This document shows positions 44,573-46,905 of a stretch of DNA of 64,000 nt, piece after piece (the first letter of the stretch is position 1; the number at the start of each line of letters is the position of its first letter). The stretch is from Halobellus limi. GTDB taxonomy: Archaea > Halobacteriota > Halobacteria > Halobacteriales > Haloferacaceae. The position numbers and the translations under genes are program-made. A model generated the notes under the pieces. The model was not told the DNA's origin. It ran no database searches and worked only from the letters and a program-made list of their open reading frames with translations. The stretch lies in assembly GCF_004799685.1 (NCBI RefSeq), contig NZ_CP031311.1:2473355-2537354 (forward strand). Direction: 5' to 3'.

Positions 44573-45772
44573 CTATCGGATGACGTCGAGGCCGTTCTGC
44601 TTCTCGCGCTGCTCGCGGCCGCCGTCGGACTGCCAGGACCCGCCGGTCGCGGTCGATCCGGTGGACTCCTGGGCGAACTCGGCGTTCTCGCTGGCATCGA
44701 ACTCCGTCGTCTCGATGCTCTCTCTGGATCGGTCGGCCTGTTTCTGCGTCGACGGGCCGAGCACCTGCGCGGACTGGACGCCGGTCATAATCGCCATCAC
44801 GCGGACTTTCCCCTTGTACTCGTCGCGGATGCGCGCGCCCCAGATGACGTTCGCGCGCGCCTCCAGCCGTTCGGTGATGTTGTTCGCGATGCCCTCGGCC
44901 TCCTTCAGGGTGAGGTCGGGACCGCCCGTGATGTGGACTAACCCGCCGGACGCCCCGCGGTAGTCCACGTCCAAGAGCGGGTGGTTCATCGCGTCGTTGA
45001 CGACCTCCTGGGTCTTGTTCTTATCCTGGGTCTGACCGACGAGCATCACCGCGACGCCGCCCTGATCCATGATCGTGGACATGTCCGCGTAGTCCAGGTT
45101 GATCAGCGACGGTTGCGTGATGGTCTCTGAGATTCCTTTCACGGTCTCGGCGATGATCTGGTCCATCACCGAGAACGCCTTGCCGATCGGGAGGTTGGGG
45201 ACGTAATCCAAGAGCCGGTTGTTGTCGAGGACGATGATCGAGTCGGCCTCGTTGCGGAGCTTTTCGAGCCCCTCCTCGGCCTTCACGGTCCGGGCGCGCT
45301 CGACGTTGAACGGGGTCGAGACCATCCCGACGACGATCGCGCCCTGCTCTTTGGCGATCTTCGAGACGACCGGGGCCGCTCCGGTCCCGGTGCCGCCGCC
45401 CATCCCGGCGGTGACGAAGACGAGGTCGGCCTCGCCGAGGACCTCCTTGATCGTCCCCTGGGCCATCTCCGTCGCCCGCTCGCCCATCGAGGGGTCGCCG
45501 CCGGCGCCGAGTCCCTGCGTCAGGGACTTGCCGACGAGGATCTTCGTGTCGGCCTCGATCATCTTGAGGTGCTGTTTGTCGGTGTTGATCGCGACCGTGT
45601 CGGCGCCGTCGACGCCGATGTTGTAGAGTCGGTTGACCGTGTTGTTGCCGGCACCGCCGCAGCCGACGATGACGATTCGGGGACTCCCGAACTCGTCGCC
45701 CTCCGGGGCCTCGGTGTTTGCGTCTCGCTCCTCCTCGTCGCGCTGCATCGCCTCTCTGACTATGTCTTGCAT
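44573..45772 (-). CDS. ftsZ2: Cell division protein FtsZ2
   Basis: 399-residue tubulin-superfamily GTPase forming the division ring. It has the Rossmann start [20 protein letters not shown], the tubulin signature [20 protein letters not shown] (about residue 125) and the T7 loop [20 protein letters not shown]. The tail is variable and ends GLDVIR. Haloarchaea have FtsZ1 and FtsZ2. The tail and the cdrS/cdrL neighbourhood identify this as FtsZ2, needed for ring constriction in Haloferax volcanii. It starts three bases after the cdrS stop, so it is cotranscribed with it. Confidence 0.95.
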
Positions 45773-45775
45773 TGG

Positions 45776-45952
45776 TTACACCTTAGCCCAGTGTTTGGTC
45801 GGCGAGTCGCGTCCCTCGGCCTGCTGTTCGTTGAGCATCTCTCGAACAGCCGAGCGGATCGCCTCCGACCGGTTCGGGAACTCCCCGGTCTCGACCATCT
45901 GTTCGACCTCCTCGATCTGCTGCTTCGGAATTCGTAGTGTCACACGCTCCAT
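45776..45952 (-). CDS. cdrS: Ribbon-helix-helix cell division regulator CdrS
   Basis: 58-residue RHH DNA-binding protein. The strand [12 protein letters not shown] is followed by two helices ([20 protein letters not shown], then [14 protein letters not shown]). Small size and its position directly before ftsZ2 match CdrS of Halobacterium and Haloferax, an essential regulator of ftsZ2 and cell division. The start is at 45952 by alignment of the RHH strand. Repeated GTAAGACG half-sites lie upstream in the leader and promoter region. Confidence 0.92.
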
Positions 45953-45967
45953 TGTTGCATTCCCCCG

Positions 45968-46002
45968 GTAAGACGGCGCGCACATCTGTGCGAACGTCTT
46001 AC
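45968..46002. promoter_or_regulatory. Spaced inverted GTAAGACG pair in the cdrS leader
   Basis: GTAAGACG (45968-45975) and its exact reverse complement CGTCTTAC (45995-46002) are separated by 19 bases. The half-sites equal those of the perfect palindrome at 46053. It lies 16-50 bases before the cdrS ATG. Candidate operator or leader hairpin. Confidence 0.6.
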
Positions 46003-46052
46003 ACCCCCGAAAACGGACGACAGCGGATCTCTCCCCCGCGCCGCCGGGTTCT

Positions 46053-46070
46053 GTAAGACGACCGTCTTAC
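46053..46070. promoter_or_regulatory. Perfect 18-bp palindrome, candidate RHH operator for cdrS-ftsZ2
   Basis: GTAAGACGACCGTCTTAC has two 8-base half-sites in perfect symmetry around AC. It sits about 27-45 bases downstream of the TATA element (46094-46103) on the minus strand, i.e. on the predicted transcription start. This is the classic place for repression by a ribbon-helix-helix protein. A lone half-site GTAAGAC is at 46116-46122. Confidence 0.7.
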
Positions 46071-46093
46071 GCGAGAGTTACCACAGAGCGATG

Positions 46094-46103
46094 CCTTATA
46101 AAT
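46094..46103 (-). promoter_or_regulatory. TATA element of cdrS-ftsZ2
   Basis: Minus-strand ATTTATAAGG is the only good TATA-like element in the 210-base gap between cdrL and cdrS. It implies a start near 46070 and an untranslated leader of roughly 118 bases, long for a haloarchaeal gene. Confidence 0.6.
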
Positions 46104-46162
46104 GTAACGCCGACTGTAAGACAGATCGGCGCTGGTGGCGTATACGGCCGCTTCGACACCGT

Positions 46163-46777
46163 TTACGTCCGTTCGAGGACGTCAGCAGCCGACGTCCGAC
46201 GGCCGCAGCTCGGACAGAACGCCCAGTCGGATCGGAGTTCGTCGCCGCACTCGCAGAATACCCGATGGGAGGCCTTCTCGCCGCAGTTCGGGCAGTACAC
46301 GTGATCGCCCTCGACACGTTCGCCGCACTTGTCACACGTCTTTGCGCCGGCGTGTTCGTCGACGGTTCCCCCCTTTGTCTTACGTTCAGACTCGGACGAT
46401 GTCGACGGCGTAGGTTCGTCGGTAGCGGACGTCTTCTCCGCGTTGACGCCGTCGAGCGAGATGTTGACGTTGAGGTCCTGTGTGCGACCGGCGGGCGCGG
46501 TCCGTCCGAGCCGCTCGTCGAGGCGATCGGCGACGAGTTCGTCGACGCGCTCTCTGATGGCCTCGTCGATGGAATCGGTGGATCGCGCCTCCGACGACGA
46601 CTCCGCGTCGAGGTCGATCATCGGTTCCGCGTCGCTCGTGTCGGACAGGGTGTCGTCACGGTCCGCGCCGTCGAGGTACGTGCGCAACGCTTCGCGCATC
46701 GCCTCCGACTTGGAGGTGTCGAGCGCCTCCAACCGCTCGACGAGGTCGTCGTCGGCGCGGAACGTGATCTTGCTCAT
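46163..46777 (-). CDS. cdrL: RHH and zinc-ribbon regulator CdrL
   Basis: 204-residue protein. An N-terminal ribbon-helix-helix (MSKITFRADDDLVERLEALD, then TSKSEAMREALRTYLDGADR) is followed by an acidic linker with a predicted coiled helix (DEAIRERVDELVADRLDERL). Two zinc ribbons come last: CDKCGERVEGDHVYCPNCG (about residue 145) and CECGDELRSDWAFCPSCG (about residue 172). It precedes cdrS on the same strand with 210 bases between them. This corresponds to CdrL, reported to regulate cdrS-ftsZ2 in Haloferax. It has its own TATA element and palindrome. Confidence 0.9.
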   Translation of the reverse strand: MSKITFRADDDLVERLEALDTSKSEAMREALRTYLDGADRDDTLSDTSDAEPMIDLDAESSSEARSTDSIDEAIRERVDELVADRLDERLGRTAPAGRTQDLNVNISLDGVNAEKTSATDEPTPSTSSESERKTKGGTVDEHAGAKTCDKCGERVEGDHVYCPNCGEKASHRVFCECGDELRSDWAFCPSCGRRTSAADVLERT

Positions 46778-46778
46778 C

Positions 46779-46796
46779 GGTCGTATATATGCGACC
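46779..46796. promoter_or_regulatory. Inverted repeat between the cdrL TATA box and start codon
   Basis: GGTCGTATATATGCGACC is a symmetric arrangement GGTCG-8-CGACC with an AT core. It lies 2-19 bases upstream of the cdrL ATG and directly next to its TATA element. Likely an autoregulatory site; its sequence differs from the GTAAGACG sites of cdrS. Confidence 0.6.
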
Positions 46797-46797
46797 G

Positions 46798-46808: not shown

Positions 46809-46905
46809 CTTCCTTCGTGTCTGACGGATGTCAGTCGGCGTGTCTGCCGTCGGGAGCGAATTCCCCTCCGGCAAATTCAAGTCGACTTTCACCGTTTCAA
46901 GCGTA

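Follow-up and report, generated by a model that had tools for sequence, protein, structure and literature searches.

A conserved palindrome at the predicted cdrS-ftsZ2 start in Halobacteria, a probable CdrL operator whose arms also pair in the leader RNA

From the sequence, position and conservation of a perfect palindrome on the predicted cdrS-ftsZ2 transcription start, from two half-site grammars and from the topology and covariation of a leader RNA, we infer that the palindrome is probably the operator of CdrL, that it was formerly a CdrS site and stands in a feedback loop, and that its arms are reused in the leader RNA (Table 1; the window is the whole 64-kb stretch of DNA analysed). Two CdrL RHH dimers would occupy the two 7-bp GTAAGAC half-sites, whose centres lie 11 bp or about one turn of the helix apart, and H1, a third half-site upstream of the TATA box, would assist binding. 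Repression is predicted from the position of the operator over +1: bound CdrL would block polymerase entry or escape and in this way set the FtsZ2 dose. The operator probably derives from a CdrS autoregulatory GTCNGAC site, kept ahead of cdrS-ftsZ2 in relatives that lack CdrL. In most Halobacteria the proposed loop would have CdrS activating cdrL and CdrL repressing cdrS-ftsZ2. After transcription, pairing of H2 with H5 and of H3 with H4 would give a three-way-junction leader, whose 5' structure probably has a stabilising or regulatory role. More tentatively, and with some doubt, the whole may be a dual-coded element, serving first as CdrL operator and then as RNA junction strands with two local hairpins as the alternative fold; the leader would then belong to an archaeal RNA family not described before, and might act as a switch, in a CdrS-CdrL loop setting the FtsZ2 dose.

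The genes cdrL, cdrS and ftsZ2, all on the minus strand, had been assigned in an earlier sequence-only reading, and their domain content shows the assignments to be correct. Among named organisms, Halobellus species hold the closest relatives of the CdrS protein. The single TATA box of that reading was borne out, with a predicted cdrS leader of about 118-122 nt. The bicistronic message of Hfx. volcanii is reported to measure about 1,500 nt by Northern, a size compatible with some 120 nt of leader but no proof of it. The 8-mer GTAAGACG occurs exactly at 45968-45975 and 46053-46060 on the plus strand and at 45995-46002 and 46063-46070 on the minus strand; these four copies are the only ones in the window (expected 1.2; four were reached in 2 of 100 shuffles). 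The sequence GTAAGACA was found at 46116-46123. The 7-mer has five copies inside 155 bp, compared with a maximum of 2 in 60 simulated windows. The palindrome, the second pair of half-sites (45968-46002) and the lone half-site all lie where they had been placed before. Across the window's own whole genome there is one palindrome with 0 mismatches, and the next best matches carry 2. A separate inverted repeat, CGGTCG-N8-CGACCG, lies at 46778-46797 between the cdrL TATA-like box and start codon and is possibly another operator.

Table 1. Coordinates of genes, DNA sites and leader RNA elements in the window.
Feature	Position	Strand	Description
ftsZ2	44573-45772	minus	Tubulin and FtsZ_C domains
cdrS	45776-45952	minus	RHH_1 domain, 58 aa
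cdrS leader RNA	45953-46072	minus	5' end predicted; three-way junction fold
H5	45968-45974	minus	transcript GTCTTAC; pairs with H2 (helix P1)
P3	45975-45995	minus	small hairpin between H4 and H5
H4	45996-46002	minus	GTAAGAC; pairs with H3 (helix P2)
P2 hairpin	46003-46052	minus	variable, with conserved CGRTTT-like stretch before H4; closed by P2
Palindrome GTAAGACGACCGTCTTAC	46053-46070		GTAAGAC-N4-GTCTTAC, perfect, 18 bp; proposed CdrL operator, at predicted transcription start
H3	46053-46059		palindrome arm, second in transcript order; as RNA, 5' strand of P2
H2	46064-46070		palindrome arm, first in transcript order; as RNA, 5' strand of P1
TATA hexamer TTTATA	46102-46097	minus	cdrS-ftsZ2 promoter; starts 32 bp ahead of palindrome
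H1	46116-46122	plus	half-site GTAAGAC; upstream of TATA, outside cdrS transcript
cdrL	46163-46777	minus	RHH, CdrL_M and double zinc ribbon
CdrS-type site	46819-46836		GTCTGAC-N4-GTCAGTC, upstream of cdrL promoter; sole such site in the window at ≤1 mismatch

Conservation was surveyed in 292 Halobacteria and 204 non-Halobacteria genomes, with the reversed pattern as control. Lack of the half-site in related species had been named beforehand as one outcome that would refute the sequence-only reading; it is kept across Halobacteria. The N4 palindrome GTAAGAC-N4-GTCTTAC is present in 233 of the 292 Halobacteria genomes and the N5 form in 42. Comparison of the two tables gives one or the other in 275/292 genomes, nearly always in single copy and none with both. 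The reversed pattern was found in none of the 292 genomes, and the palindrome is absent from all 204 non-Halobacteria genomes. Among the 17 remaining Halobacteria, 16 carry a variant at the same position (gap of 2, 3 or 6, or one half degenerate). The seventeenth, genome G230, has neither the palindrome nor a clear cdrS (the best match has E 3.4e-4); its assembly may just be incomplete. The exact palindrome stands in 176 of 183 distinct cdrS upstream regions, and its start lies 30-33 bp past the start of the TATA hexamer across the 183 loci (32 bp in 141). The half-site centres are 11 bp apart in 148/183 loci and 12 bp apart in 21, the spacing expected of RHH operators. The gap ranges from 2 to 6 among the 183 loci, which is wider than a rigid dimer-dimer contact would predict and counts against the CdrL operator model. 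As expected of a CdrL operator, there is normally one copy per genome, located upstream of cdrS in the 183 loci. The lone half-site had been counted as part of the set, and it does belong there: H1 recurs with ≤1 mismatch 40-85 bp upstream of the palindrome in 173/183 loci, where about 12% would be expected by chance in a simple calculation that takes all bases as equally frequent. Some arrangements are unusual. In L024 (from the genus of the window) and in L081 and L086 (both Haloquadratum) the second arm is a direct GTATGAC at a gap of 3, so that the half-sites are in tandem. The chromosome record CP132292.1 (Haloferacaceae archaeon XH8) holds two cdrS loci (L089 and L098), both with N5 palindromes, and genome G240 has two N4 palindromes.

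The sequence-only reading had proposed an RHH operator bound by CdrS or CdrL. An RHH-type operator at the cdrS-ftsZ2 start is supported by the class-wide half-site; CdrS as the binder is disfavoured relative to CdrL. By ChIP-seq, the sole reproducible genomic site of CdrL in Halobacterium salinarum is the cdrS-ftsZ2 upstream region (PMC7439475), and CdrS in Haloferax volcanii has 18 sites, most of them lying 41-110 nt ahead of start sites, with its own cdrS promoter not among them (PMC8406309); both data sets have peak resolution and come from species other than that of the window. At ftsZ1, a CdrS target (PMC8406309), all 34 promoters have two half-sites of the form GTCNGAC separated by N4, 63-68 bp ahead of the ATG (20/34 perfect, the others with 1-2 mismatches), and a GTAAGAC pair occurs in none of the 34. 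The GTCNGAC grammar also precedes hisB and a PRC-barrel gene and, less perfectly, dacZ (clear in some genomes, weak in Haloferax with 3 mismatches), all gene kinds in the CdrS ChIP table (PMC8406309). This distribution indicates that the motif of CdrS is very probably GTCNGAC-N4-GTCNGAC, the GTAAGAC palindrome being something else; at the 148 gap-4 loci the cdrS palindrome has GTAAGAC where a CdrS operator, as at ftsZ1, has GTCNGAC. The loose form of the CdrS-type pattern (2 mismatches) was rejected as a regulon definition, since it gave 69-153 matches per genome and is too permissive.

It is unlikely that CdrS binds the palindrome and autoregulates, as arrays in outgroups hint for the past. 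GTAAGAC and GTCNGAC half-sites are a single base apart and have identical N4 spacing, CdrS-type arrays stand in outgroup cdrS leaders, and the RHH strands of the two proteins are near-identical (that of CdrL, SKITFRAD, being near-invariant). However, GTC is kept at 34/34 ftsZ1 sites where the palindrome reads GTA, the CdrS ChIP list is without the cdrS promoter, and the phylogenetic range of the palindrome is that of CdrL (both 0/204 outside the class) and not the wider range of CdrS. The CdrL_M middle domain was found in none of the 204 non-Halobacteria genomes and was below detection in 10/43 Halobacteria; the RHH part of CdrL is present beside cdrS in nearly all examined loci. CdrL is the most likely binder, because its only reproducible ChIP site is the cdrS-ftsZ2 promoter, the CdrS ChIP list omits that promoter, and the half-sites at CdrS targets read GTCNGAC. 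A difference at residue 3 of the RHH strand (K3 versus R3) was considered as a sufficient cause of GTA versus GTC and rejected: the outgroup CdrS of L256 has K3-T5-R7 together with GTCCGAC sites.

The cdrS-ftsZ2 pair occurs outside Halobacteria without CdrL. Within the upstream 200 bp of 12 such outgroup cdrS loci there are 23 GTCNGAC copies (0.25 expected from 500 shuffles) and 20 GTCNGAC pairs in 11-bp register (0.03 expected from the same number of shuffles). With these arrays in relatives that lack CdrL, the ancestral state looks like CdrS autoregulation, which suggests that in Halobacteria an ancestral CdrS site may have been replaced by the CdrL palindrome. A CdrS-type site with ≤2 mismatches is present in the cdrL promoter at 132/170 loci, compared with 4/850 shuffles, in most cases between -59 and -72 relative to the ATG. 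It is missing at 2 mismatches in 38/170 loci. In two Haloferax (denitrificans and massiliensis) it is degenerate, with 3 mismatches, and several other groups lack it. The cdrL gene is likewise not in the Hfx. volcanii CdrS ChIP list (PMC8406309), an absence consistent with the degenerate site in the two Haloferax. At ftsZ1 the CdrS site is upstream of the promoter and apparently activating (PMC8406309). The site at cdrL is upstream of TATA like that of ftsZ1 and the palindrome covers the cdrS-ftsZ2 start, from which negative feedback is predicted; the two sites together imply a candidate CdrS-CdrL loop.

The leader of the window folds into a three-way junction (-57.5 kcal/mol, z -3.75), within which the H3-H4 hairpin has a z of -4.31; H5 is located just upstream of a GGGGGAA stretch and the cdrS start. 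The junction topology was obtained in 30 of 32 dereplicated leaders with all four arms. When the spacers alone were shuffled, the junction was obtained in 13% and local H2:H3 and H4:H5 hairpins dominated. Among 34 leaders that lack an exact H4, pairing of H3 with a far-downstream stretch is kept in 76% (11% in controls), and H2 is paired with H5 in 88% (16% in controls). The outer flanks of H3 and H4 are complementary above partner-shuffled flanks (z 4.8); those of H4/H5 and H2/H5 have no excess over the same control. Across P1 and P2 in 40 aligned leaders, 36 cells changed on both sides compared with 17.1 in shuffles (0/500), and the covariation score was 0.125 compared with 0.071 (0/500), also above slid controls; kinship inflates these counts and affects the slid and other-flank controls equally. 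Conserved structure with compensatory changes, as is expected of a cis-regulatory leader RNA, is therefore present. When one subgroup was aligned with MAFFT and folded freely with RNAalifold, P1 and P2 were recovered with almost no covariation, because the arms are invariant there, and the wider set was needed. A scan of 45900-46200 against the Rfam covariance models, with hits up to E 1 allowed, found none.

The second pair of half-sites, which the sequence-only reading counted in the operator set with a possible action within the leader, is better explained as mainly RNA, its halves pairing with the palindrome arms. A second operator was rejected as the main reading because H4 is exact in just 110/183 loci, yet its RNA pairing with H3 is kept even at loci that have lost the DNA half-site. 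A self-contained H4:H5 hairpin was also rejected: the flanks have no excess complementarity, and it forms in 6% of natural leaders compared with 43% of controls. The small P3 hairpin within H4-H5 is likely real; its z-scores are no better than those of the adjoining H3-H4 stretch, which is itself structured. Pairing alone does not account for the conserved CGRTTT-like stretch that precedes H4 in the 3' part of the P2 hairpin (46003-46015 in the window, and the matching place in relatives).

The repeats could be conserved mainly as RNA, the DNA palindrome being a by-product of self-complementary arms. The junction frequency of natural over shuffled leaders, the compensatory changes in the P2 flanks and the survival of H4 pairing after loss of the DNA half-site are in its favour; nevertheless this explanation is quite improbable, as H1 is conserved though untranscribed and upstream of TATA, H2 and H3 themselves almost never change or compensate, and CdrL has a ChIP peak at the cdrS-ftsZ2 promoter in Halobacterium. 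Three loci also bear on it. L177-L179 keep the palindrome (imperfect in L179), and L177 and L178, where it is exact, fold as local hairpins in place of the junction; the operator may therefore be older than the leader junction. Reading of the half-site by CdrS-CdrL mixed dimers, one subunit on GTC and the other on GTA, would suit GTAAGAC and the H1 variants GTCATAC and GTATGAC, each with one GTA and one GTC quarter-site, in contrast to CdrS-type sites with GTC on both sides, but is highly improbable, since a comparable asymmetry is found in GTATGA, the half-site read by E. coli NikR (PMC7055735), so that the asymmetry needs no mixed dimers, and the CdrS ChIP list has no peak at the cdrS promoter.

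The CdrL operator as proposed resembles the CdrL region of Halobacterium salinarum in promoter, adjoining regulator gene and one site per genome; that report gives a ChIP peak, its text being without motif or palindrome (PMC7439475), and the present analysis gives the proposed operator base by base, shows its near-universal occurrence in the class, and adds H1 and the leader RNA. The CdrS motif of Haloferax volcanii (PMC8406309) is likewise a symmetric RHH site, and the deduced ftsZ1 form GTCNGAC-N4-GTCNGAC shares the N4 layout of the palindrome. CdrS sites differ in reading GTCNGAC, in lying upstream of the promoter, in being apparently activating and in that the 18 do not include the cdrS promoter (PMC8406309). 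NikR, one of the proteins of solved structure closest in sequence to CdrS (E 0.0022), is an RHH protein with the operator GTATGA-N16-TCATAC (PMC7055735); it shares a related half-site and differs in its N16 spacing and metal-sensing tetramer, the cdrS palindrome half-sites being one turn apart. With structured, riboswitch-like 5' leaders the cdrS leader shares a conserved multi-helix fold with covariation ahead of one operon. It differs from them in having no Rfam match and in forming two helices from DNA operator arms, and a ligand or switching is hypothetical. A search of the accessible literature found no CdrL motif and no leader RNA for the cdrS-ftsZ2 locus.

It is an open question how the level and timing of the archaeal division ring are set; CdrS and CdrL had previously been known just from binding peaks, expression data and phenotypes. 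Base-level candidate operators are now available for both regulators, with a code (GTAAGAC versus GTCNGAC) that would separate CdrL from CdrS. The feedback loop is testable, and the evolutionary account is that of a new RHH paralogue which may have captured a formerly autoregulatory site. Through the leader RNA, the FtsZ2 mRNA may be controlled at a further level. Further CdrS-type sites were observed ahead of other genes. In L236 and L241 they precede an uncharacterised gene with a repetitive 'VVVGNRSTVEFGVRGRNVLAG' start, the first 60 residues of which matched nothing in Pfam. SepF is lowered in CdrS-depleted Haloferax, yet is outside the published ChIP list; at L002, in the window's own genome (C1:410458-410475), a perfect CdrS-type palindrome, GTCAGACGAGCGTCTGAC, is present 36 bp ahead of the ATG of a SepF-like gene recognised by eye from its sequence.
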